The notes beneath the pieces were generated by a model that was given only the letters and a program-made list of their open reading frames with translations, was not told where the DNA came from and made no database searches. Shown here piece after piece: positions 9,805 to 64,000 of a stretch of 64,000 nt of DNA. Location of the stretch: contig JAEUPL010000005.1 in assembly GCA_016790165.1 (NCBI GenBank), forward strand, positions 146,843-210,842. Reading direction: 5' to 3'. Origin of the DNA: Burkholderiales bacterium (GTDB lineage: Bacteria > Pseudomonadota > Gammaproteobacteria > Burkholderiales > Casimicrobiaceae). Made by a program: the position numbers and the translations under genes. The first letter of the stretch is position 1, and each line of letters starts with the position of its first letter.

Positions 9805-10638
9805 CTACACGCGCTCCACCGTCATCAGCCACACCCGGCGTCCGTCCGCGCGCAGCACGGTGAACTTGAGCCCGCCGAGCGTGATGCTTTCACCGCGATG
9901 GGGCACGCGGGCGAACTCCTGCATCAAAAGGCCGCCGACAGTGCCGGAGTCGTCGTCGCTGAATTCCGTACCAAACTTTTCGTTGAAGGCATCGATCTCG
10001 GTCGATGCCTTGACGCGCCACTTGGTGGCGGTCTCAGCGACAATGTTGTCGGCCTCTTCGTCATAGTCGTACTCGTCGATGATTTCGCCGACGATCTGCT
10101 CCAGCACGTCCTCCAGCGTGACCAGCCCGGCCACCGAGCCGTGCTCGTCAATGACGATCGCCATGTGGTTGCGTTGCGAGCGGAACTCGCGCAGCAGCAC
10201 GTTGAGCCGCTTGGTTTCCGGCACAAACACCGGGGGCCGCGCCACCGCCTTCAGCGAAAACGCGTCGGGGTTGACCAGGTAAGCGAGCAGATCCTTCGCG
10301 AGCAGGATGCCGACCACTTCGTCGCGACTGTCGCCAATCACGGGGTAGCGCGAGTGGCGCGTCTCGACCATTTCGGCGATGACTTCGGCCGGTGCGTCGT
10401 CGATCTCAATGACGTCCATCTGCGAGCGCGGCACCATGACGTCGCTGACCGTCATCTCGGCGACTTCGAGCGCGCCTTCGAAGATGGACAAGGCGTCGGC
10501 ATCGAGCAGCCGGCGTTCGTGCGCATCACGAAGCATGTCGAGCAGATCGTCGCGATCCTCCGGTGCGCCGGAAAGCATCGTCGACAGACGCTCGAAAAAC
10601 GTTGGCTTGTGCGCCGTGCCGCCGTCAGCGTCGCTCAT
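9805..10638 (-). CDS. corC: CorC/HlyC-family CBS-domain transporter-associated protein
   Basis: A 277-residue protein (YbeX type) with an N-terminal helical region, a CBS pair containing TVSDVMVPRSQMDVIEID and HSRYPVIGDSRDEVVGILLAKDLL, then a CorC_HlyC domain ending VWLMTVERV. It is linked to magnesium/cobalt homeostasis and, through its operon, to ribosome maturation. It has no membrane segments of its own, as expected for CorC (unlike CNNM/YfjD). It stands between ybeY and lnt in the conserved order. Confidence 0.92.
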   Translation of the reverse strand: MSDADGGTAHKPTFFERLSTMLSGAPEDRDDLLDMLRDAHERRLLDADALSIFEGALEVAEMTVSDVMVPRSQMDVIEIDDAPAEVIAEMVETRHSRYPVIGDSRDEVVGILLAKDLLAYLVNPDAFSLKAVARPPVFVPETKRLNVLLREFRSQRNHMAIVIDEHGSVAGLVTLEDVLEQIVGEIIDEYDYDEEADNIVAETATKWRVKASTEIDAFNEKFGTEFSDDDSGTVGGLLMQEFARVPHRGESITLGGLKFTVLRADGRRVWLMTVERV

Positions 10639-10663
10639 CGCTCATGCCCTGCCATCGGCAGAT

Positions 10664-10785
10664 AACAGCTTCTTCCTGCATCGACCAGCGGGCGGTCGTT
10701 CCGGGCCAGAAAACGTTCCTGTCGACTTGGTGATAAATCGCCATGTGACGACCGTACACTGGTCGCCGGCGGGAAAAAGCTGTTG
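10664..10785. repeat. Pair of inverted REP-like hairpins between corC and ybeY
   Basis: Two related units in opposite orientation. At 10664-10698 the sequence is AACAGCTTCTT..., followed by the hairpin CGACC-AGCGGGC-GGTCG. At 10749-10785 the hairpin CGACC-GTACACT-GGTCG is followed by GGGAAAAAGCTGTT, the inverse of the first unit's head. Related copies occur at 27963-27995, 30383-30414, 34549-34589 and 40183-40216. Confidence 0.6.
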
Positions 10786-10812
10786 CGCGCCATGCGTGTG
10801 GTTGGTATGGGA

Positions 10813-11322
10813 TCAGACCGCTTCATAGGGGTTTTGTATACGAAATCGTTTCAGCACGGCAATTTCGATGGCTTCCATCGCGGCAGCTTCGGTCGCGTCC
10901 TCATGATCGAGTCCCTGAGCATGCAGCATGCCATGCACCACCATGTGCGCGTGGTGCGCCTGGACGGGCTTTTTCTGCTCGCGTGCCTCGCGGGCGATGA
11001 CCGGCGCGCAAATCGCGATATCGGCAAGGTACGGCTGCGCCACAGGACGACCGACCGATGAGGAAGAACGTGATGGAGACGCGGCTGGGGCGCTGGCGCT
11101 GATTTCGTGAACGAAGGTCAACACGTTGGTCGCGTAATCCTTGCCTCGAAAGTCGCGGTTCAGCGCGCGACCTTCCTTTTCGTCAACGTAGCGAATCGTC
11201 ACCACGCCGTCACCCGCACCCGCGTTGCGCGCGTGTGCCGCCAGCGCCCAGCGCCGAACCTGCGCGCGCGAGGGCAGATGCACCGCCGTTGACGCGAACT
11301 GGACGCTGAGACGCAGCGTCAT
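10813..11322 (-). CDS. ybeY: Endoribonuclease YbeY (rRNA maturation factor)
   Basis: A 169-residue metal-dependent RNase needed for 16S rRNA 3'-end maturation and ribosome quality control. It carries the zinc motif HMVVHGMLHAQGLDHE, corresponding to the family H3xH5xH pattern, and the conserved NRDFRGKDYATNVLTF segment. A small insertion of low complexity (ASAPAASPSRSSSSVG) sits between the two halves. It follows phoH in the operon. Confidence 0.94.
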   Translation of the reverse strand: MTLRLSVQFASTAVHLPSRAQVRRWALAAHARNAGAGDGVVTIRYVDEKEGRALNRDFRGKDYATNVLTFVHEISASAPAASPSRSSSSVGRPVAQPYLADIAICAPVIAREAREQKKPVQAHHAHMVVHGMLHAQGLDHEDATEAAAMEAIEIAVLKRFRIQNPYEAV

Positions 11323-11450
11323 GGCTGGGTCGCCGTCGCGCCGCGACGGCGAGGACGAAAGACGAAAGCCGAGCGACGAAAACCGCCTCCCCGTGCAACC
11401 GCATGTGTATCGTCATTCCTCATTCGTCATTCGTCCGGCGGCACCCGCCG

Positions 11451-12497
11451 CTAACTGTTATCCCGTGCGCTCTGCCGCTCGTAGGCGTTCACAATCTTCT
11501 GCACCAGCGGGTGTCGCACCACGTCAACGCTGGTGAAGCGCGTGAAGGCGATGCCCTTGACACCACCGAGCACGTGCTGTGCGTCGATCAGACCGCTCTT
11601 CTGGTTTTTCTGCAGGTCAATCTGTGTCGGATCGCCCGTGACGACCGTTTTGGTGCCGAAGCCGATGCGTGTCAAAAACATCTTCATCTGCTCCGGCGTG
11701 GTGTTCTGCGCCTCGTCGAGGATGATGAAGGCGCCGTTCAGCGTGCGACCCCGCATGAACGCGAGCGGCGCCACTTCGATGGTGCCACGCTCCATGAGTT
11801 TGGTGGTCTTTTCGAAGCCCATCAGGTCGAACAGCGCGTCGTACAACGGCCGCAGGTACGGGTCCACCTTCTGAATCAGATCGCCCGGCAAAAAGCCAAG
11901 CCGCTCGCCCGCTTCCACCGCCGGACGCACCAGCACGATGCGCTTGATCAGGTCGCGTTCAAAGGCATCCACTGCACAGGCCACGGCGAGATACGTTTTG
12001 CCCGTGCCGGCGGGGCCAATGCCGAAGGTGATGTCGTGATCGCGGATGTTTTGAAGATAGGCAAGCTGGGTCGGCGTGCGTGCAGTGAGATCAGCGCGCT
12101 TGACCTTGAGCGGAATGGCACCGGCCGCCGTTTCGAGTGCCGCGAATTCCGCTGCTAACTGCGCCGCATCCGGGCCGCTCGCATCGCTGACGTCGTCGCC
12201 CTGAGCCTCGCGCGCGGCGAGTGGCGCACGCAGTTCGTTCAGGGTCAGTTCGATGTCGTCGTCCGACAGATCCCGCTTGCCACCGCGCGCCACGTAGCGA
12301 AATCGTTCGATGGCCTTTTTTGCCGCCTGCGCGGCGACCGATTCACCCGCGATGGTGAATTTCGCCATGCGCCTTTCGACGGTCACGGCGAATGCCGACT
12401 CGATGCGACGAAGATTGTCGTCCATCGCGCCACACACGGTGGCGAGCGTTGCGTTGTCGATCGGCTCGAGCGTGAGTTCGAGCGAGGCGGTACTCAA
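11451..12497 (-). CDS. ybeZ: PhoH-like ATPase (YbeZ)
   Basis: A 348-residue PhoH family P-loop protein. It has an N-terminal KH-like region, Walker A GPAGTGKTYLA, Walker B FIILDEAQNTTPEQMK, and sensor segment VVTGDPTQIDLQ. YbeZ works with YbeY in RNA metabolism. It is the first gene of the ybeZ-ybeY-corC-lnt run. The true start could be a few codons in, but MSTASLELTLEPIDN reads as a normal N-terminus. Confidence 0.93.
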   Translation of the reverse strand: MSTASLELTLEPIDNATLATVCGAMDDNLRRIESAFAVTVERRMAKFTIAGESVAAQAAKKAIERFRYVARGGKRDLSDDDIELTLNELRAPLAAREAQGDDVSDASGPDAAQLAAEFAALETAAGAIPLKVKRADLTARTPTQLAYLQNIRDHDITFGIGPAGTGKTYLAVACAVDAFERDLIKRIVLVRPAVEAGERLGFLPGDLIQKVDPYLRPLYDALFDLMGFEKTTKLMERGTIEVAPLAFMRGRTLNGAFIILDEAQNTTPEQMKMFLTRIGFGTKTVVTGDPTQIDLQKNQKSGLIDAQHVLGGVKGIAFTRFTSVDVVRHPLVQKIVNAYERQSARDNS

Positions 12498-12616
12498 GTG
12501 GGAAGGGCGGAGTCGGAAAGGCCTGTATTTTCAGCGTTTTGCGCCGTTGCCGCAAATGCTGTGCGGCGCCCGACAGCGCGGCAAAGCGGCGCCGACGCGT
12601 CGATCCGGACGTGACG

Positions 12617-14410
12617 CTACATGCAGGCGCGATAGATCTCGGCGATTGACACGTGTCCCTTGCGCGCCTGCTCAACCCCGTTGACAGGCAGCGTGACCAT
12701 CCCGCCGTCGATGGCGAGCTGACGATATTCGTCACTCGCCACGCCGTCGGCGACGCGGCTGCGAATGCGGTCATTCATCACCATCAGCTCATAGATCGCC
12801 ATTCGTCCGGCGAAGCCCGTGAAGTGGCAGGCTTCGCAGCCCGTGCCGCGCAGAAAGACTTCGCCGGGCAGCAGCCCGAGATTCTCCGCGAGCAGGGGAT
12901 CAACCTTTTCCGGCGCGCGACACTGCGGGCAATTCTTTCGCACCAACCGCTGCGCCAGCACGCCAATCACGGCCGAGCGGATCATGTACGGCGCGATACC
13001 GATTTCCAGCAAGCGCACCAGCGCACTCGAGGCATCATTGGTATGCAACGTGCTGAACACGAGGTGGCCGGTGAGTGCGCTCTCGACCGCGATCTTGCAG
13101 GTTTCGAGATCGCGCATCTCGCCGATCATGATCACGTCCGGATCGTGGCGGAGGATGTGCCTCAGCGCCTGCGGGAAACCAAAGTTGATCTGCGGCAGCA
13201 GCTGAATCTGTCGCGTCTTCGCCAGCTCGTATTCGATCGGGTCTTCGACCGTGATGATGTTGACGTTTTCCTTTTTGACCGCCTGCAACGCCGCGTAGAG
13301 CGTCGTCGATTTCCCCGAACCCGTCGGCCCCGTCACCAGAATAATGCCGTAGCTGCGCCGGATCAAGTCAAGAAAGCGCGCTTTGTCGGCCTCCTTGAAG
13401 CCGATCTCGTCGATCGAGCGCAAGCCAGCGCTCTTGTCGAGAATGCGGATCACAACGCTCTCGCCATACTGCACGGGAATGACCGAGATGCGCAGGTCAA
13501 CCGGCTGTTCGCCGACATCAAGCCGGATGCGGCCATCCTGCGGCAGGCGGCGCTCGGTGATGTCGAGCGATGCGAGAATCTTGATGCGGCTCACCACAGC
13601 CGGCAAGAGCGCGATGCGCAGGCTGCGCATCGGAACCAGCGTGCCGTCGGTGCGATAGAGCACTTCGAATTCGTGCTTGCCGGGCCGGATGTGCACATCG
13701 GAGGACCGCATCCGCACGGCGTCGCGCAGCAGCGCATCGACCAGATTGACGATCGGGGCACGCTTCGCCAGATGCTCGGCATCGCGCCAGATGCGCTCTG
13801 CGTCCTGGTCGGCGTGACTTTCCTGCTCATGCGCCAGCTCGGCCAGCGTGCGCAGCTCGTCCGCCTCCTGCGCCGAGCGATAGCGGCGGTTGATCGCCTC
13901 GTCGATCTGCACGCTGCTGGCCCGCACATAGACGAATCGTCGCTGCAAGGCAAAGCGCAGCACACCCAGCGCTTCGTCGTCGGGCAGATCGATGATGGCC
14001 AGCACCACTGTGTCGCGCCAAAGCATGACCGGCAGCACGCGATAGCGCTCGACAACGGCGGAGCTCAGCAGCGACGACGCGGCGTCCGACAGCGCGAACG
14101 ACTCCAGATTCACCTTGGGAATATCGCGAACCCCATGCAGGGTCTGCCGCGCGATGATAAGCGACGCATCGGACGCGTCGGGCTGCGCTGTGGCCACCTG
14201 TAGTTTGGCACGTTCGTAGTCAAGGCGGCTCGGCGGATCCGAGCGCGTCAGCCAATGCCCATACGCCGAGCTGGACGAGGCGTGCGCATCCAGCAGCGCC
14301 TCGAGTTCATCGGCGTTGGTTACCTCGCGGTCGTGCGTTTTGCTGGTCTGCATACGATGAGCATTTTCTGGAGCAACCCCCGCTACTCCGTTGATGTCGG
14401 CCATTATCAT
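12617..14410 (-). CDS. GspE/PilB-family type II secretion/type IV pilus ATPase (orphan)
   Basis: A secretion-type ATPase with an N-terminal MshEN-like region, Walker A GPTGSGKSTTLYAAL, Asp box TVEDPIEYEL, Walker B DPDVIMIGEMRD, His box HLVFSTLHTNDA, and a C-terminal tetracysteine zinc motif (CPQC and CEAC). It would power pseudopilus or pilus assembly from the cytoplasmic face of the inner membrane. No other gsp or pil genes are in the window, so its machine is elsewhere. The longest frame opens at 14467, 8 bp after the ppc stop; the ATG at 14410 is my preferred start, uncertain by up to 60 residues. Confidence 0.88.
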   Translation of the reverse strand: MIMADINGVAGVAPENAHRMQTSKTHDREVTNADELEALLDAHASSSSAYGHWLTRSDPPSRLDYERAKLQVATAQPDASDASLIIARQTLHGVRDIPKVNLESFALSDAASSLLSSAVVERYRVLPVMLWRDTVVLAIIDLPDDEALGVLRFALQRRFVYVRASSVQIDEAINRRYRSAQEADELRTLAELAHEQESHADQDAERIWRDAEHLAKRAPIVNLVDALLRDAVRMRSSDVHIRPGKHEFEVLYRTDGTLVPMRSLRIALLPAVVSRIKILASLDITERRLPQDGRIRLDVGEQPVDLRISVIPVQYGESVVIRILDKSAGLRSIDEIGFKEADKARFLDLIRRSYGIILVTGPTGSGKSTTLYAALQAVKKENVNIITVEDPIEYELAKTRQIQLLPQINFGFPQALRHILRHDPDVIMIGEMRDLETCKIAVESALTGHLVFSTLHTNDASSALVRLLEIGIAPYMIRSAVIGVLAQRLVRKNCPQCRAPEKVDPLLAENLGLLPGEVFLRGTGCEACHFTGFAGRMAIYELMVMNDRIRSRVADGVASDEYRQLAIDGGMVTLPVNGVEQARKGHVSIAEIYRACM

Positions 14411-55535: not shown

Positions 55536-56000
55536 TCAATCCATCCGCCGATACCCAACTGCCTCTGCCGCATGGGCGACGGTGATTGGCTCGCTCCCGG
55601 CGAGGTCGGCGATCGTCCTTGCCACGCGGCAGATGCGGTGCTGAGCTCGTGCCGATAAGCCCAGCCGCGCGCTCGCCTGCCGCAACAACGCCTCACCGTG
55701 ATGATCCAGCCGACAGTGAGTATCCACTTCTGTCGCGCTCAACTCAGCGTTTGACTTGCCTTGCCGTGCCCACTGCCGTTCGGTGGCGAGCGTCACGCGC
55801 GAGCGAACCGTGGCAGATGCCTCGCCATCCGGCGCGCTACGCAAAGATTCGCTGGGCAGCGCGGGTACCGTAATTTGCAGGTCGATCCGATCCAGTAACG
55901 GCCCGGAGAGCTTGCCCCGATAACGCGCAATCTGGTCGGGCGTGCAACGGCAGGGCTTCGCTGGAATGCCCGCGCCCAGAAAACCATCCGGACAAGGGTT
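55536..56000 (-). pseudogene. comM: 3' remnant of comM (Mg-chelatase-like helicase)
   Basis: The last about 154 codons of comM: NPCPDGFLG, CRCTPDQIARYRGKLSGPLLDRIDL, and the C-terminal helical region ending VGYRRMD. ComM is a hexameric helicase that extends D-loops during natural transformation. The first two-thirds of the gene are missing here because a mobile island is inserted at the NPCP(C)G codons; they should lie beyond the right end of the island. The remnant is in frame with the recombinase. Confidence 0.88.
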
Positions 56001-57545
56001 AGTTGCCTTTTTGCCGTTGTTTAAAGGGGAAGCCGAAGGGGAGCCTGATCCGCTTCCGGGCGATCCGCTTCCACCTTCGGAGCCCCCGCCCAGCTTGCCT
56101 TCTGGCTGATACAGGAGGTCAATGGTGATGTCATCCTTGCCGACGACAATCCTTTCGGTGATTGCCTCCACAATCCGCCGCTTGTCCTGATGGGCCAAGG
56201 AAGCCCAACGGGTATACAAGTCCCTGGCCCCAACGATGATGTCTTCCTGGGACAGTTGAGCGATCTTGAGGGCATCGACTTCCGCCTGGAGTGCTGGTAG
56301 TTCTGCCTCCAGTTCCTGCTTCCTGGCCGCGAGGGGAAAGTATTTCTGACCAAATCCAGTCTTGTCGATGGCTCCGGACTGGTAAAGGTCATGCAATTTG
56401 TCGATCTGAGCGGCAACGCTCTTCAGTTCCTTTTCCTGTGTCGACAAAAGCTGCCCCTTCTCAGCGATAGCGCTCGTGGCAATCGACAGGTGTTTGGCGA
56501 TTTCCTCTGGCGAGAAAAAGAAATTCCTCAGTTGTTCCTGGAACACCGCTTCCATGTCGGGAAGGGGAATCTTGTTCCGGCAATGGTCGCAGGTGTACTT
56601 CGGGTTATTGGACGGCACATACATCTTCCGCCCGCATTGGCAGTAAATCACCCCCGAAAATAAGTTCACAACCCGCTTGGCCTTGGTACCTTCCGGAGAC
56701 CGGACTTTGGCGTATACAGCCTGAACTTCATTCCACTTGTCCTCGGAAAGGATGGCCGGGGCCGGAATATTTAGCCACTCGCCCTCGTCTTTCATCACCG
56801 GCGAGCCATTCTGCTGCCTGGCGGCGCTCGAATAGTTCATTCGGCGATTGCCTTTGGCAATCGGATCAACTAAGAGGCGTTTGATGCCGGAATCGGTGAA
56901 CTCATGGCCAGCTCGCGTGCGATAGCCACGAACGGACATGATGCGAGCAACGGACTTGAAGCGTTGATGCTCTAGGAACAGGTCATACATTTCCCGGCGT
57001 ATTACTGCTTCCTTTTCCTCAACGACAAGCTTGCCGTCAATCCAGGCATAGCCGAAGGGGGCGCTCCCGCCGAGTGACTTGCCGAGCTTGGCGCGAATGG
57101 GAATTGAAGCGGAAACGCGAGTGGCAATCTCATCCCGCTCCCACGTGGCCATAGCGGCGATGATGGTGAAGAACAAGCGACCAGCGGGCGTCGAGGTATC
57201 GATACTCTCGCCGAGAGAAATCATTTCCGCGTCGTGCTGGCGGAAATAGTCGGCAAAGTCGAGAAGTTCTTTGGTATTCCTCGCGAGCCTCGCCAGCTTG
57301 GAAAAGATAAGCCCCTGAATCTGTCCGGCTCGGACATCGGCGAGCATGCGCTTGGCTTCCGGGTGCTCCTTGACCGTCTTTCCGGATACACCTTCAAGGT
57401 GATAGACCGTTACGACGGTCCAGCCTTTGGCTTCGGCATAGTGTCGAGCCCGCATTTCGTGGTGTTCAGGAGATTCGCCGCGTGCCTGGTCTTCGGTGGA
57501 AACACGAATCCAGATGGCAACGCGTTTTTGGGTGTCGTTCTTCAT
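55536..57545 (-). CDS. Large serine recombinase fused in frame to the ComM C-terminus
   Basis: A 669-residue frame starting at ATG 57545 (GGAG seven bases upstream). Residues 10-150 are a resolvase catalytic domain (WIRVSTEDQ with the nucleophilic Ser, then IFSKLARLARN). A recombinase domain and a zinc-ribbon (CQCGRKMYVPSNNPKYTCDHC) follow, then a coiled coil and a Gly/Ser-rich linker (GGGSEGGSGSPGSGSGS). From residue about 516 it becomes ComM (NPCPDGFLG...). It would catalyse attP x attB integration and excision. Fusion probably arose because attP overlaps the recombinase 3' end. Confidence 0.88.
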   Translation of the reverse strand: MKNDTQKRVAIWIRVSTEDQARGESPEHHEMRARHYAEAKGWTVVTVYHLEGVSGKTVKEHPEAKRMLADVRAGQIQGLIFSKLARLARNTKELLDFADYFRQHDAEMISLGESIDTSTPAGRLFFTIIAAMATWERDEIATRVSASIPIRAKLGKSLGGSAPFGYAWIDGKLVVEEKEAVIRREMYDLFLEHQRFKSVARIMSVRGYRTRAGHEFTDSGIKRLLVDPIAKGNRRMNYSSAARQQNGSPVMKDEGEWLNIPAPAILSEDKWNEVQAVYAKVRSPEGTKAKRVVNLFSGVIYCQCGRKMYVPSNNPKYTCDHCRNKIPLPDMEAVFQEQLRNFFFSPEEIAKHLSIATSAIAEKGQLLSTQEKELKSVAAQIDKLHDLYQSGAIDKTGFGQKYFPLAARKQELEAELPALQAEVDALKIAQLSQEDIIVGARDLYTRWASLAHQDKRRIVEAITERIVVGKDDITIDLLYQPEGKLGGGSEGGSGSPGSGSGSPSASPLNNGKKATNPCPDGFLGAGIPAKPCRCTPDQIARYRGKLSGPLLDRIDLQITVPALPSESLRSAPDGEASATVRSRVTLATERQWARQGKSNAELSATEVDTHCRLDHHGEALLRQASARLGLSARAQHRICRVARTIADLAGSEPITVAHAAEAVGYRRMD
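55985..56004. other. Probable attachment site (island/comM junction)
   Basis: The point where recombinase-side sequence changes to comM is near the AACCCTTGTCCG codons (NPCP), a stretch strongly conserved in comM. The matching junction at the island's other end is outside the window, so the crossover dinucleotide cannot be fixed. Confidence 0.55.
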
Positions 57546-57704
57546 AGATCGACTCCGGCCAATGCAAAGACTCACTGTACATTACAACAGTATTTGTTGC
57601 AACAATTTTGAGCACCTAGTTTTTGAACGAACCCACTTGAAAAGGTGGGAGTTCCGTTGCTTGAATTCAGCGAAGATTTGACTTCGATTCTCGGGGAGCG
57701 AACG

Positions 57705-58130
57705 ATGTGGCGTTATGTGCAAAGTACGGGTGATTTGTTCCTGAACGACCAATACATGGAGACAGGGTACTCCGGGGCTGTACCCAACGGGAAGAACAAT
57801 CCGGACATGGAATGCGTCAAAAATGTTGGGCCGATTCCAAGAGGCATGTACACGATTGGTCCCGTTATCGACAAGCCAACGCCTGTCACACTCCGTCTGG
57901 CGGCGGATAAGCCGGACTACTGCAATCCACCGCGATCAGGATTCCTGATTCATGGCGACAATACGACGCACACCGCCTCGCAAGGCTGCATCATTCTGTC
58001 GCGAGGCATGCGGCAAACTATTGCGGACAGTGGAGACAGTCGCCTGATGGTGGTGCGTGACTCTGTCTTGTCCGCGCGGCACACAACAAGCGGCGCTACG
58101 CGCTGGCGTGCCAGGAGCAATCAGCTATAG
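57705..58130 (+). CDS. Tlde1/DUF2778-like L,D-transpeptidase-fold protein
   Basis: A 141-residue protein starting MWRYVQSTGDLFLND, with GGGGAG upstream. The GYSG..NGKNNP, VGPIPRGMYTIG and FLIHGDNTTHTASQGCIIL segments match the Tlde1 (DUF2778) domain, with H83 and C95 as the YkuD-like catalytic pair. Tlde1 proteins are type VI secretion effectors that cut or modify peptidoglycan tetrapeptides, but similar genes occur in mobile elements. No immunity gene or secretion tag is visible, so function as toxin or wall-remodelling enzyme is open. It converges on the nuclease gene. Confidence 0.78.
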   Translation: MWRYVQSTGDLFLNDQYMETGYSGAVPNGKNNPDMECVKNVGPIPRGMYTIGPVIDKPTPVTLRLAADKPDYCNPPRSGFLIHGDNTTHTASQGCIILSRGMRQTIADSGDSRLMVVRDSVLSARHTTSGATRWRARSNQL

Positions 58131-58137
58131 CCACCAA

Positions 58138-58650
58138 TCACTCCACCCCTCGATTCTTCCGAAATTCCCACGGGGGAGTCGGGGACGGGTCACGCCATAG
58201 TCCTCGCTTGGCTTCTCTGGCTTCATCTTCGGCCGCGCTGTATAGAGCCCGGTCAGCCTTTTTCTGTTCTCGCTGATACTGCTTATAGTGCCAGGCGAAT
58301 CCAGCCTTCACTTGCTCCAAGTTGGCGTCCACACCGTCAACAAGCACCTTGCCCACAGTGCGGCCATAACGATCAGTCTTATTGCCCTCGACGGTCACGG
58401 TCTTACGATAGACCAAATCCGATAGGTGCTCCTTGGAGCGCTGGCCGAACGCCTGCTTCTTCTCTGGTGCATCGATACCCGCCAAGCGAATCTTGTGTTG
58501 CGTCTTGGATTCATCGAGAACGGTGATGGTGTCGCCGTCGGAGACGCCGACGACGAGGCCGGTGACATCCGCCCAACAGCAAGTTGACAGCAGCGCCGAA
58601 AGCAAGATCGGCGCAACGCAAACGTAGTTGATTTTCTTTAGCATCTGCAT
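58138..58650 (-). CDS. Secreted thermonuclease (staphylococcal nuclease homologue)
   Basis: A 170-residue SNase-fold nuclease with a signal peptide (YVCVAPILLSALLSTCCWA). Catalytic residues are in place: D39/D41 in VSDGDTITV, R55 and E63 in HKIRLAGIDAPEKK, and R97 in DRYGRTVGKV. It should cut DNA and RNA in the periplasm or outside, with calcium. Such genes are frequent cargo of plasmids and conjugative elements. Confidence 0.9.
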   Translation of the reverse strand: MQMLKKINYVCVAPILLSALLSTCCWADVTGLVVGVSDGDTITVLDESKTQHKIRLAGIDAPEKKQAFGQRSKEHLSDLVYRKTVTVEGNKTDRYGRTVGKVLVDGVDANLEQVKAGFAWHYKQYQREQKKADRALYSAAEDEAREAKRGLWRDPSPTPPWEFRKNRGVE

Positions 58651-58770: not shown

Positions 58771-61700
58771 CTAATCGTCCTCATCGTCTGAATCCGTGCG
58801 TTCATCAATTTCGCGTTGCGAATTTTTTTTGATCCGCTCGTACAGATTCCAAGCACGTGAGAAGCGATCCAAAGTTGAAAGGATACCTTTCACCTTTTGG
58901 ACGGTCTCTATGTCGCGGGGAAATGGTTCGCCATATGTGCCTTGTCGTTGGCCGTAGGCCCCAGCACAATAAAGCTCACTCTCAATCGTCCGGGCAACAA
59001 CTTCCCCAAATCTGCTCCCGACTTCAAGGAACCGCTCAACGTCGGTGGTGCGTTCGAGTATTGGTTTGTATCCTGCTCTGCAGTAGGCCGAACAAGCCAA
59101 CGTTGCGCCAGCAGCGTCCTCCTCGGCAACCTGCAAGAGGAAGGAAAAATACTCTCCGTCGAAAGGACTTAGCGTAGCGGCTAGAAGATCGGTGGCTACA
59201 TATAGTTGAGCCCCTCCATGCATCGCGAATTGTTTCGCCCATCGCCAGAGTTCATCGCGTACTTGTAAGTAGCCTACGGCTTCACGAAATTTGACTGGGT
59301 GAAAGTCGTCGACCAGTGTCGCATAGTGACGCATTTCGTTGCCATCGAATTGCCGCTCAATACTCGTGGTTAAGACTCGAACAACCTCGTGTGGATGTGA
59401 TCGGGAGACACTCGACATGAACTCTGCGACACCAAACCCACCTGTCTTCGATAGTGTCGATAGGCGGTGGAAAACAGGAGCAAGACTTTCGCTAGTCAGT
59501 GTGGCGAGAGGCGGGGACTTGATCGTGCACAACTGCGTTAGCACCTCGTTTGCGACCTTCGTGGACTTGGTGAAATCGATTGTGATCAGTAACTGCTGTG
59601 CCACTTCGGGAAATCGGGCAGACAGTGCTCTGATCGAATCCGCTGCAGCCACGGCGATATCTTCATTCTTCGATTCAACCAGCTCGAGTAACAGTGGAAT
59701 GACTGAGTCCTCTATTTGGCTCTGAGTAGCGCGCTGAAAAAGTGAGCCAAGAGCATTGGCAACCTCGTGCGTAATCACATCGTCACCAACCTCCACGAGG
59801 CGCGTTGCCTGTGCGATCGCCACTGAAATATCACATTGGGCCAGCGCGTGTAGTCCCACTGCCACATACGTCCGAGACGTGTCAGCCGTTCCCGTGAGTA
59901 GGCAATCACGGTACGCCGGCGACCTTACACACAATTCATAGAGAAAGGGGCGCGCTGACAGGGAGTCGAACCCGCTGACCTCTTGGTGACTTTTGAGGAC
60001 GGTACAAATCTTGGTGTGAAGCCCTGCTATGTCGGAATGTTGCTTGATGGCGTCGTCGGCTGTTTCTGTCAACACCACTGACCACTCGGCGCGCCGACGA
60101 GCGTGATCTGCATCATCGTAGAGATGCCCGAAGCCATCGATGAGGGCGAGCGTGATCCGATACTCTAGGTCATTTGGCTGCGTTGCCAACACGGCGCGCG
60201 CAGCCGTTTGCACCTCTGACTTGGAATACTTCGCCAGATACGCCACGGATTTGGCGACTCGGAATACGATCAGGTTGTCATGTTTGTATTTCGACAGGCA
60301 TCGGCGAACCTTCTTGAGAGTAGAGACAAATTCGTCCTGCCACGCTTCCTTCTTGTCCAACTCAGAAGGGCTAGTTGCACCTATCATCGGCGGGCGAAAC
60401 GCCTCCTCCAAAAATACAGCGGCTCGCCAGGCTCGGCTCAGGTCCTCATCGTCCAACTGCAGTATGGCTCGATCAATGACGCGCCGCCGAATGTTTGCTA
60501 CTGCTGCATGTTGAACGGCAAAGTGTCGAAGTGAGAATGACTTTCCTTGCCATTCGGTATCCAAGCCGTCCGCACGTAAACTGCCCGCCAGAGCATCGTA
60601 TGGGCAGAGTCCTTTTGTCCAAGCGGAGTCGCGGTCGAGCAGCGACAGCATCCTGTCCGTAACCTTGGCACAAAACACGGTGGGTTTGTTCGGGGCCACC
60701 GACACCAACTCGACAAGCTTTGATAGCGCCCCTGATCGAGTCTGGTTTCCATTCATCTGTTCACGTTGCGCAAGTACCCACAACGTTTCAATTGCGTGGT
60801 CAACATGCTCGAAGTGGTGCGCTGCACTAAAGACCACCTGCTCCAGACTGTCGACGATTTTGCCGGTGCGGATGCAGTCATCCGCGAACGCAAGCGCTCG
60901 TGCCGGCTCAAAGTACGCCAGTCTTTGCAGGGTGTGTGTGTTGCGTTCATACGTGACACACCTTTCCTTCGCTTTTTCCCAAAGCAGGTCAAGCAGACAG
61001 TTGTCGCTCTTGGCTGATGAATCGCGCAGCCAGTATGTTTTGCTGACGTTCGTAATGATGTTGTTGATGAGGTGTGGCGGAGCCTTGTCGAGTAACTGCT
61101 CGGCAAAGCCAGTTGACTTTCCGCCCACGGCAAAGCAGGCATCATTGACAAGCTGGTCAGCCACAAGGTCTGGGACGATGCGTAGCCGTCCCTTACGCTG
61201 CAATATCAACCCAGTATCGACATATCGCTTTAGCGTTTGATGAATCTGCAACGTGGTTGACAGACCATCGTTGCCGAGCAGGTTCGATATGTCGCGAGCG
61301 TCACTAACTGGCTGGATAAGCGCCAAGCATTGCAGGACTTGCCGCGTTTGGGCGCTTTCGACAGGCCGGGCAGGATCGATGCTTGCGACATCGGCGTAAC
61401 GTTGAAGCACCAACTCTCGAAATGCACGATGCGAAGGCAGCCTTGATGGATATATTCCGTCGTGCGCCACGCTGAACGCCCCGGCGACCAGGGCAAGGGT
61501 ACAGTTCTCAGACGCCGCCGCAAGTGCATCGGCCAGTCCCGCGTCGGCACCAAATGCTTCCAGTGCGTTGACCGCGAGCGCTCGCGCGGAAGTCCTCGGT
61601 AGTGCGTCAACATGCACGATGCGCAACCGCTCGTCGATGATTGCGAACTTCCATAGCGAGTGTTGCACTTTCGCGAGTCCATGCGTTCTCGTTACGAACA

Positions 61701-62772
61701 GCACCCGCGAACCATCTTCACTTGAGGCGACGTAGCGGCCAATGGCTACGAGGTCATCACTGTCGTGGGCGTCGTCGACTACGATTAGCTTCTTGCCTTC
61801 CCCGAGCGCAGATAGCTTAACCTCTCCGGCATCTCGACGCTCCGCGAGCAGGTAGATATGTTGAAACGATTCTCTGATGGGTTGAGACTCCAGGACGTGC
61901 CGAATCAGCCTGGTTTTTCCAATGCCCGCATTGCCGGCAACAATGACCGCGACCGCCGATGGTGAAAGCAATGCTGCGGTAATAGCGTCTTGCTCTACGT
62001 TTCGGCCGATCAATGGCCATGCATGATTGAACCGCTTGTCGGGCTGCAACCAAGGCTTGAAGTAGTCTTGTGGACTTAGCCAGTGGAGGTCTTCGTCGCG
62101 GCCAATCAACGCTAGCTTGCGGCCTGGGAAAAAAGTGTCGAGGATCGGCGAAAGCTGTGCCGGGCGGAGTTGCCGCAATTTCAGCGAAATATCCTCAAGG
62201 TCCCAAATTCCCCATCGCTCGTGCGCGCGTACAGCGTCACGCGCCCTACCGCTGGCTGTGCGCGACAGCAGAATGAATACCCGGTCCGCCTTGCCGTGGT
62301 ATTTGTTGACGATGGCGGCTATCTGGCCTGGCCCAAATTTCGCCGCCCGCTTGCACTGATACTCGAAATTCTCGCCAGCCGGCGTTTTTACGCTGATGTC
62401 AATGCCTCGCTGATCATGTCCGGTGCTACCGTGGAGGTGCACTTCGTAACCTTCGCCGTAGTGAGCTTGAAGAAACATCGCACAGAATCGCTCGAAGGCA
62501 CGGGGGTTCAGAGTCCCTAGCGGGAAGGGCGAGTCGAAACTCGTTGATTCCTCGGGTTGTGCTGGCGGCTGACGTTCACCGAAAAGCACCTGTAAGTCGC
62601 TTGCCGGCACTCGAAGTGCCTTCGCCAGCATAGGCAAGTCCTTGCCGCGTGGCCGTGATGCCCCCTTCTCCCAACGGCTAACTGTCTGTTGCTTGACCTT
62701 GATTGCGGTGGCCAAATCTTGTTGAAGCGGAAAACCCGCGTCTACCCTCAGTTCGGCAAATGTTTTACCCAT
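58771..62772 (-). CDS. XRE-Mrr-like nuclease-STAND NTPase-helical repeat protein (putative Avs-type defence protein)
   Basis: A 1333-residue multidomain protein (ATG 62770-62772, GGTGAG upstream). Residues 3-63: XRE helix-turn-helix (LATAIKVKQQTVSRWEKG). Residues about 85-200: Mrr/PD-(D/E)xK nuclease with D125 in RGIDIS and E137-x-Q-x-K141 in FEYQCKR. Residues about 250-480: STAND NTPase with Walker A GNAGIGKTR (280-288), Walker B LIVVDDAHD and an LFVTRTHG sensor. The remaining about 850 residues are helical repeats that in Avs proteins sense phage products. Nuclease plus STAND plus sensor is the Avs plan; the N-terminal XRE domain is unusual. I infer antiphage activity. A palindromic operator sits just upstream. 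Confidence 0.8.
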   Translation of the reverse strand: MGKTFAELRVDAGFPLQQDLATAIKVKQQTVSRWEKGASRPRGKDLPMLAKALRVPASDLQVLFGERQPPAQPEESTSFDSPFPLGTLNPRAFERFCAMFLQAHYGEGYEVHLHGSTGHDQRGIDISVKTPAGENFEYQCKRAAKFGPGQIAAIVNKYHGKADRVFILLSRTASGRARDAVRAHERWGIWDLEDISLKLRQLRPAQLSPILDTFFPGRKLALIGRDEDLHWLSPQDYFKPWLQPDKRFNHAWPLIGRNVEQDAITAALLSPSAVAVIVAGNAGIGKTRLIRHVLESQPIRESFQHIYLLAERRDAGEVKLSALGEGKKLIVVDDAHDSDDLVAIGRYVASSEDGSRVLFVTRTHGLAKVQHSLWKFAIIDERLRIVHVDALPRTSARALAVNALEAFGADAGLADALAAASENCTLALVAGAFSVAHDGIYPSRLPSHRAFRELVLQRYADVASIDPARPVESAQTRQVLQCLALIQPVSDARDISNLLGNDGLSTTLQIHQTLKRYVDTGLILQRKGRLRIVPDLVADQLVNDACFAVGGKSTGFAEQLLDKAPPHLINNIITNVSKTYWLRDSSAKSDNCLLDLLWEKAKERCVTYERNTHTLQRLAYFEPARALAFADDCIRTGKIVDSLEQVVFSAAHHFEHVDHAIETLWVLAQREQMNGNQTRSGALSKLVELVSVAPNKPTVFCAKVTDRMLSLLDRDSAWTKGLCPYDALAGSLRADGLDTEWQGKSFSLRHFAVQHAAVANIRRRVIDRAILQLDDEDLSRAWRAAVFLEEAFRPPMIGATSPSELDKKEAWQDEFVSTLKKVRRCLSKYKHDNLIVFRVAKSVAYLAKYSKSEVQTAARAVLATQPNDLEYRITLALIDGFGHLYDDADHARRRAEWSVVLTETADDAIKQHSDIAGLHTKICTVLKSHQEVSGFDSLSARPFLYELCVRSPAYRDCLLTGTADTSRTYVAVGLHALAQCDISVAIAQATRLVEVGDDVITHEVANALGSLFQRATQSQIEDSVIPLLLELVESKNEDIAVAAADSIRALSARFPEVAQQLLITIDFTKSTKVANEVLTQLCTIKSPPLATLTSESLAPVFHRLSTLSKTGGFGVAEFMSSVSRSHPHEVVRVLTTSIERQFDGNEMRHYATLVDDFHPVKFREAVGYLQVRDELWRWAKQFAMHGGAQLYVATDLLAATLSPFDGEYFSFLLQVAEEDAAGATLACSAYCRAGYKPILERTTDVERFLEVGSRFGEVVARTIESELYCAGAYGQRQGTYGEPFPRDIETVQKVKGILSTLDRFSRAWNLYERIKKNSQREIDERTDSDDEDD

Positions 62773-62786
62773 CTTGATAAGCTCAC

Positions 62787-62832
62787 CACATTCGATATTG
62801 CACACATTTTAATGTGTGCAATATCGAATGTG
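62787..62832. promoter_or_regulatory. Perfect 22-bp-arm palindrome upstream of the XRE-nuclease-STAND gene
   Basis: The 22 bases at 62787-62808 are the exact reverse complement of 62811-62832, separated by TT. The centre is GCACACATT-TT-AATGTGTGC. It ends immediately before the GGTGAG ribosome-binding site. It is the likely operator of the gene's own XRE domain; TTGCAC and AATATC-like hexamers within it could be promoter elements. Confidence 0.8.
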
Positions 62833-62857
62833 TCTGTACTGGTGAGCATGTGAATGC

Positions 62858-62881
62858 AAAACGGCCCCGAGGGGCCGTTTT
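62858..62881 (-). terminator. Rho-independent terminator after the XRE/RuvC-like pair
   Basis: AAAACGGCCCC, GA, GGGGCCGTTTT: an 11-bp stem beginning 2 bp after the RuvC-like stop codon, with T-runs on both strands. It insulates the STAND gene from upstream transcription. Confidence 0.85.
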
Positions 62882-62882
62882 G

Positions 62883-63386
62883 CTATTCGATCAGGGCGTA
62901 GTAGCTCAGCCCAAGAGTCGCCGCGTCATATAGTCCTTGCCGCCTTGACTCGGACATCCAGGCACGTCGTGGGGCGGGCGCCAGGTGCTTGAACGCAGTG
63001 ATTTCGCGAGCGATCACCACCGCAATCTGATTCTTGGTCTTAGCGCCAAAGCGGCTAAAGACATGGCGTATGGTCTCGCGGGACACGGTCTCTACCGAGA
63101 CTCCACGCAGTTCTGCCAGATTGCGAATCGCGACGTACAAGGTTCGCATCCTCGCCGGGCGCCTGAACACTGGCGCATCAAAGGCTTCGACCACCAGAAC
63201 ATCCGGGTGATACCGCTCAATCAGCAGTTCCAGATCATCCAGTATTCGTGCCATACGGGTACTACGGGGCAAATCTTTTGTTCCCCAGTCAAACGGTGAA
63301 AGTGGGCCGTCAAACAGGGCAAAGGCATAACCACGGGTGGTAGGGTACAAAGATAAGACGGTGACGTTTTGTTGTTTACTCCACAT
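62883..63386 (-). CDS. RuvC/RNase H-fold-like protein
   Basis: A 167-residue protein whose order of strands and motifs resembles RuvC-type resolvases. VTVLSLYPTTRGYAFALFDG occupies the first strand, PDVLVVEAFDAP the second acidic motif, and SRRQGLYDAATLGLSYY the C-terminal Asp motif. The first catalytic Asp of RuvC is replaced (LYPTT), so activity is doubtful or uses other residues. It overlaps the XRE gene by 11 bp and is surely co-expressed. Possible roles: element resolution, or a regulator partner. Confidence 0.6.
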   Translation of the reverse strand: MWSKQQNVTVLSLYPTTRGYAFALFDGPLSPFDWGTKDLPRSTRMARILDDLELLIERYHPDVLVVEAFDAPVFRRPARMRTLYVAIRNLAELRGVSVETVSRETIRHVFSRFGAKTKNQIAVVIAREITAFKHLAPAPRRAWMSESRRQGLYDAATLGLSYYALIE

Positions 63387-63738
63387 GAAGGGTTGAAGGG
63401 TTCCGTTCGGTCACACGGTCGAGAACATCAATCAGAAGTTCACGCTTACGCTGGGCGCTCAACGACTCGACCGCTTCCAGGCGATCACGCAGGCGCTCCA
63501 CGCGTCGAATCGTCTTCGATTCGACCTCCTTGAATTTGTGTGGAAAGAGGAAGCAGATTCGCTCGCCGGTCAGCAGTTCAAAGGCGATGGCAATCTCAAG
63601 GCTAGGCGCACGATGTCCGTTCTCGATACGAGATACGTGTGTCGTGCTCTTGATCCCGAGCAGTGACGCAATTTCCTTCTGCTTAAGAGCGAATCCACGC
63701 CGCCACGGTCGCAGCCGTGGCCGAACAGGAGTGTGCAT
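63376..63738 (-). CDS. XRE-family transcriptional regulator
   Basis: A 120-residue helix-turn-helix protein (FALKQKEIASLLGIKSTTHVSRIENGHRAPSLEIAIAFELL) with a basic coiled tail (RRVERLRDRLEAVESL). First gene of the XRE/RuvC-like pair. A small palindrome (63751-63770) lies just before the ATG and may be its own operator. The ribosome-binding site is weak. Confidence 0.8.
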   Translation of the reverse strand: MHTPVRPRLRPWRRGFALKQKEIASLLGIKSTTHVSRIENGHRAPSLEIAIAFELLTGERICFLFPHKFKEVESKTIRRVERLRDRLEAVESLSAQRKRELLIDVLDRVTERNPSTLHVE

Positions 63739-63865: not shown

Positions 63866-64000
63866 TGTGATGTTTCAATAGGTTGTTCACCTGAAAGATT
63901 CTGGGAGACTGGAGTTACCACGCTTCAGAACTCTCAGAGGAAATCAACCAGGTGAACAGCCATAAGAATGCCAGATTGACCGTGGAAGGACGCAAGTTGC
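63866..64000 (+). mobile_element. IS481-family insertion sequence, left end (truncated by window)
   Basis: The left end begins TGTGATGTTTCAATAGGTTG, close to the known IS481 terminus. It is preceded by GCTAGA (63860-63865), fitting the NCTAGN target preferred by IS481. The rest lies beyond the window. Confidence 0.8.
63952..64000 (+). CDS. IS481-family transposase, N-terminal fragment (partial)
   Basis: From the GTG at 63952 (AGAGGAAA upstream) the frame reads VNSHKNARLTVEGRKL, the usual N-terminus of IS481 transposases. It is cut off by the window edge. Confidence 0.75.
   Translation, partial: MNSHKNARLTVEGRKL

Follow-up and report, generated by a model that had tools for sequence, protein, structure and literature searches.

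Close to one end of the 64-kb stretch of DNA of a Burkholderiales bacterium analysed here (64,000 nucleotides, hereafter the window) lies a long gene whose predicted product combines an XRE DNA-binding domain, an Mrr-like nuclease, a STAND ATPase and a helical C-terminus, and which is preceded by a perfect palindrome (Table 1). The initial annotation of this DNA had described a frame of 1333 residues and had given no strand; the frame is real and runs on the minus strand, and its G+C content is 55%, compared with 62% for the window.

Table 1. The gene, its predicted domains and the features around it (positions in the window).
Feature	Position	Strand	Details
XRE-Mrr-STAND-solenoid gene	58771..62772	-	single open frame, ATG at 62772, 1333 amino acids plus stop
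Cro/CI-type (XRE) helix-turn-helix (HTH)	62584..62772	-	residues 1-63; recognition helix QQTVSRWE; HTH_3, E 1.5e-8
Mrr_cat nuclease	62191..62514	-	residues 87-194; conserved Q121, D125, Q139-C-K141; Pfam Mrr_cat (PF04471)
STAND ATPase	61138..62016	-	about residues 253-545 (end placed from model); NB-ARC, AAA_16, nSTAND5, Foldseek, Walker motifs
C-terminal HEAT/ARM-like alpha-solenoid, proposed sensor	58774..61110	-	residues 555-1333; AlphaFold2, Foldseek, HEAT_2
Perfect palindrome, proposed operator	62787..62832	.	22-nt arms, 2-nt loop; -60 to -14 of ATG; core ACACAT-N4-ATGTGT
GC-rich palindrome, possible terminator	62856..62883	.	located after the RuvC-like open reading frame (ORF)
RuvC-like ORF (neighbour)	62883..63386	-	167 amino acids; weak match, below cutoffs
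Separate XRE gene (neighbour)	63376..63738	-	120 amino acids; own promoter without dyad, best 8/12
SNase-domain nuclease gene (neighbour)	58138..58650	-	Pfam SNase, 9.9e-27
Tlde1-domain protein (neighbour)	57645..58130	+	Pfam, 2.7e-10
Large serine recombinase, in frame into C-terminal part of ComM/YifB; island end	55536..57575	-	

Domain architecture and distribution of the family

With regard to the N-terminal half of the protein, Pfam HTH_3 matched residues 17–60 with 35 bits (cutoff 23), and the HTH profile of the family matched the P22 C2 and 434 repressor chains. Mrr_cat reached 26.4 bits (cutoff 21) when residues 1–640 were scanned separately, and was absent from the Pfam matches of the full chain at E ≤ 1. 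NB-ARC scored 28.8 bits (cutoff 23.5; best stretch, residues 322–370), and AAA_16, at residues 253–306, stayed under its cutoff. The AlphaFold2 models had a mean predicted local distance difference test (pLDDT) value of 81.8 for residues 1–640 and of 84.8 for residues 555–1333, the latter being modelled as nearly all helical. When both models were compared with PDB entries by Foldseek, which gave low template modelling (TM) scores throughout, the SIR2-STAND protein EfAvs5 ranked first for residues 1–640, followed mainly by Apaf-1 and by plant and animal NLRs; importins and the PP2A scaffold were among the top matches for residues 555–1333, and the C-terminus is therefore described as a HEAT/ARM-like solenoid. 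Pfam, structure models and Foldseek thus agree on the order XRE, nuclease, STAND and helical C-terminus that had been proposed initially.

The same architecture was found elsewhere. A search of plasmids by tblastn detected relatives in Rhizobium etli IE4771 (98% of the query covered, 27% identity) and in Xanthobacter (82% of the query, 26.5% identity, without the HTH), and a profile scan of genome contigs gave 40 loci, 30 of them with long matches; the ten others (L037–L046) had short matches only and were dropped. Of the 30 long loci, L012 is truncated by the end of its contig and L031 has a broken frame; the HTH is missing from L030 and L033 and is encoded in frame with the rest in the other 26. 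The frame of L025 is full length, though its tblastn match stopped at residue 882. Homologues with the proposed order therefore exist, most of the approximately 30 long relatives sharing it, which excludes a chance frame. The window protein is 23–30% identical to each other member. Judged by record titles, the hosts are proteobacterial, in the older and wider use of the term that takes in the deltaproteobacteria, with the exception of one Frankia-titled record, L031.

The family is rare, with long matches in 2 of 369 genomes of the class and in 5 of 295 of one family (one with an internal stop); in a sample of 100 the single match was the window's own. A tally of 204 out of 398 as family members was left unused because most of these matches were short, to HTH or AAA regions, and only G000, G562 and G528 (the last partial) were long. 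Single-sequence scans of genome contigs and viral contigs returned zero relatives, so that the profile scan was needed; the viral profile scan gave nothing beyond one partial nuclease match, and two phage records matched, through the HTH part alone and in repressor genes. E. coli genomes held no near DNA match to the gene of L027, which was used as the query in place of the window gene.

Per-domain models applied to 24 members at E ≤ 0.01 detected HTH_3 in 24, Mrr_cat in 23, and AAA_16 and nSTAND5 in 24. HEAT_2 matched nine of the 24. Residue conservation was read from an alignment of 33 rows, one of which (L047) duplicates another (L020). Walker A residues G280, G283, G285 and K286 and the DDAHD stretch at 333–337 were identical in all 33 rows, which, together with the NB-ARC score and the NLR-like fold, bears out the earlier description of a STAND domain with intact Walker A and B motifs. 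The nuclease residues D125, E137 and K141, also named at the outset, fared differently: D125 and K141 are near-invariant (32/33 rows each), but E137 occurs in a single row, and Q139 is present in all 33. This conservation indicates that the active site is D125...Q139-x-K141, not D-E-K. In the translation of L030 (4124–8197), one of the members without HTH, E and R stand at the places of D125 and K141, a hint that repressor and active nuclease may go together.

A candidate operator that co-varies with the HTH

Reading of 28 upstream regions yielded the dyad ACWCAT-N2-4-ATGWGT. In several members, among them L009, L014 and L008, it overlaps a TTGACA-17-TATAAT-like promoter, and in others it is located at the start codon. 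We scored it from -80 to +15 in the members with the standard recognition helix, that is, the window, R. etli and 24 of the 26 HTH-bearing loci, and, as controls, in the regions upstream of 538 other ORFs (150–1249 amino acids) from the same loci. A score of at least 10/12 was reached in 25 of these 26 members compared to 8 of 538 controls, at least 11 in 21 members compared to 2 controls, and 12/12 in 12 members compared to 1 control. The sole standard-helix member under 10 was L032, with 9/12, and after removal of three near-identical members 22 out of 23 still reached at least 10/12. Before gap 2 was included, with gaps 3 and 4 only, four of the 538 controls scored at least 10 and none higher.

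The site is also specific in position. Across 22 loci, 26 dyads scoring at least 11 fell within the own-promoter windows, compared to 2 in the remaining 455,250 bp. The window holds one dyad of at least 11/12, namely the palindrome listed in Table 1. With up to three mismatches allowed, the inner part of this palindrome occurs once in the assembly to which it belongs, which is 91.9% complete. We also considered whether the palindrome belongs to the neighbouring XRE gene; this was set aside because that gene's promoter is without the dyad and because the dyad travels with the family to loci with other neighbours.

The presence of the dyad followed the state of the HTH. None of the six members in which the HTH is lost (L003, L030 and L033) or its recognition helix changed (L022, G997 and L034) reached 10/12, and in the three without HTH no dyad of at least 10 was present within 400 bases upstream, the best scoring 9. 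These three retain the Mrr-like region and the STAND domain, with altered nuclease residues in L030. A tRNA-Leu gene ends 24 bases before the start of the gene in L022 (9867–9980; Rhodopseudomonas sp. AAP120) and in G997 (L085 9370–9485; apparently of the same genus), and these two may therefore be transcribed from a different promoter; having both the altered HTH and this location in common, they were counted as one event.

Several points weigh against reading the dyad as a self-operator. The motif was tested on the same promoters from which it came, which makes the test partly circular, and gap 2 was added after inspection of L015. Start codons were chosen by us and are uncertain in the HTH-less members. 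Only G997, L031 and the HTH-less members lay outside the derivation of the motif; of these, G997, an expected negative, scored 8/12, and L031, a broken gene, 10/12. The 538 controls are mechanically listed ORFs rather than verified genes. The loci also include some near-identical ones. Moreover, a sigma-70 scan of the window's own promoter gave no match, the best hexamers there scoring 9/12.

Both features by which a Cro/CI-type autorepressor was recognised were found, an HTH_3 match above its cutoff and, with the partial circularity just described, a co-varying dyad at the gene's own promoter. As far as sequence comparison goes, autorepression by the fused XRE domain appears well supported, in agreement with the initial suggestion that this domain could repress its own gene.

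Mobility and gene neighbourhood

The members L007, L013, L018 and L027, three of which bear different genus names and one a class name only, share approximately 4.3 kb (about 9811–14108) at 94–98% identity. This unit comprises the gene together with some 160 bp of upstream and 100 bp of downstream sequence, and the flanks beyond it are not common, except for some 90 bp more in L013 and L027, which also have one related neighbour gene in both, at different distances. The comparison indicates that a single-gene unit, promoter included, has moved between genera. A search of its edges for terminal repeats had no clear result; short TCGGCC/GGCCGA motifs were seen there by eye. No plasmid matched the L013 stretch. 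Likewise, no conserved partner gene was found among 392 neighbour ORFs plus the neighbours in R. etli and in the window, the largest common group covering four loci.

The adjoining XRE gene, the SNase gene and the comM island of the initial annotation are all real, with the qualification that the RuvC-like ORF and a palindrome with 13-nt arms separate the XRE gene from the gene studied here. The XRE gene and the RuvC-like ORF (62883–63738), which lie upstream of the latter, overlap by 11 bases, and a terminator scan reported no terminator at the GC-rich palindrome. comM is split, with model positions 2–347 on contig C2 and 344–499 on C6, behind the serine recombinase; since contig C6 ends where the window does (210842), C2 probably carries the far side of the island. 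By eye, positions 63880–64000, at the contig end, resemble the start of an insertion sequence.

With regard to defence genes near members of the family, the evidence points both ways. In R. etli, where the stretch has 15 other annotated genes, of which 10 were scanned, four of the ten were PtuB, a PtuA piece, GajA and GajB (Septu, Gabija). A 1345-aa protein near the R. etli member (L002 18466–22500) had no PADLOC match at E ≤ 1e-5. Around the other loci, 137 out of 153 nearby genes were scanned, and 131 PADLOC models matched at E ≤ 1e-10, a figure that identifies no individual neighbour and has no control set; CBASS cyclases, a SAVED-HNH effector, Old and AriA were among the 25 models listed, and the Pfam matches of the same 137 neighbours were mostly to household enzymes, with one or two members each. 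Against a general defence context, nine of ten further neighbours, mostly large or adjacent ones, were without a PADLOC match at E ≤ 1e-15, the tenth being RmrA. The expected defence-island neighbourhoods thus appeared in R. etli but in only one of ten genes of this second chosen set, and the defence context is real in places and not general.

Proposed mechanism and comparison with known systems

We consider it probable, judging from the architecture and the promoter, that the gene encodes a one-gene NLR/Avs-like immune effector that represses its own transcription. In the resting state, the XRE domain would bind the promoter palindrome, probably as a dimer, and keep the amount of nuclease low, and the helical sensor would hold the STAND core closed; STAND proteins are described as closed monomers at rest that multimerise when triggered (PMC6468293). 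A foreign factor, probably a phage or mobile-element protein, would bind the solenoid, whereupon the STAND core would open and multimerise and the Mrr nuclease would cut DNA, so that the invader is stopped or the cell killed. There is a matching site in the gene's own promoter, and therefore the protein probably keeps its own dangerous nuclease down until triggered. A single chain that unites repressor, sensor and nuclease could further form a feedback switch, in which STAND assembly pulls the XRE domain off the operator, unleashing the nuclease and raising the protein's own synthesis; we put this forward tentatively, as a possibility, the release of the promoter upon activation being what we infer.

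Other explanations were weighed against this one. Some bacterial STANDs are transcription regulators (PMC7159879; MalT, PMC6468293), and the HTH could be the output of a regulator of the MalT kind in which the nuclease fold is merely structural. Such a regulator is quite improbable here, given that the nuclease residues are near-invariant, that the candidate operator sits at the gene's own promoter and is unique in the assembly, and that the HTH-less members keep nuclease-like region and STAND alike (L030 with its altered residues). It is unlikely, too, that the HTH targets the nuclease to operator-like sites on phages or plasmids, with binding at its own promoter being secondary: the resemblance of the HTH profile to phage repressors and the two phage matches would suit this, but 25 of 26 members have the dyad at their own promoter, and self-cutting would need to be prevented. 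Restriction-modification control proteins time expression after entering a new host, and the autorepressed nuclease could do likewise, in which case the gene would be a selfish module for maintenance or addiction and any defence a by-product. Transfer as a 4.3-kb unit and location in the split-comM island are consistent with such a module, which nevertheless seems very unlikely, as no adjacent partner gene of any kind is conserved and the large STAND-sensor part is left unexplained.

The self-repressing effector that we favour is closest in layout to Avs proteins, which recognise phage terminase or portal, multimerise and activate a nuclease. The PADLOC and NCBIfam libraries hold curated Avs/AVAST models, but the families listed for the window protein included no Avs name, and neither did those of the 24 members, whether in all 23 families of one scan or in the first 25 of 40 in another. 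The initial label 'Avs-type' is sustained by the order of N-terminal effector, central STAND and helical C-terminus and by the best fold match, EfAvs5 SIR2-STAND (PDB 9jap), and not by family names; the family differs in its extra N-terminal XRE domain, its HEAT/ARM-like solenoid and the proposed self-operator, so that the label applies by analogy only. As for RmrA and other HTH-bearing PADLOC proteins, their likeness is confined to the HTH (about residues 5–60 of the window protein), with no match beyond it.

MalT-type regulators share a STAND ATPase, a repeat sensor and a DNA-binding domain with this family (PMC6468293). The HTH of the family differs in being N-terminal and Cro/CI-like. MalT is not known to have a nuclease. 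Our literature search, which covered titles and the beginnings of abstracts and left subscription literature mostly outside, so that novelty is unproven, gave no description of this architecture with a self-operator; the family combines known parts in an unusual arrangement that we have not found described.

The family bears on how lethal NLR-like immune proteins are held in check in bacteria, and on whether their amount is raised under attack. The CARD-NLR-like LypABC of Caulobacter is toxic on overproduction and repressed by a separate XRE protein, CdxB (PMC13236601), so that both cases would place a toxic STAND/NLR-like system under an XRE repressor; CdxB, however, is a separate gene acting in trans, whereas the family studied here has its repressor fused to the nuclease and STAND domains. 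WYL regulators control defence islands and BREX (PMC9122601; BrxR, PMC9122589), and resemble the present case in that defence genes have a dedicated regulator, but they are separate genes of another fold. While the comparison cases found, WYL/BrxR and CdxB, use a separate regulator gene, the present family carries the putative regulator in the same chain and offers a defined candidate operator together with natural HTH-less and natural operator-less variants, and the coupling of repression and activation is therefore directly testable in one gene.

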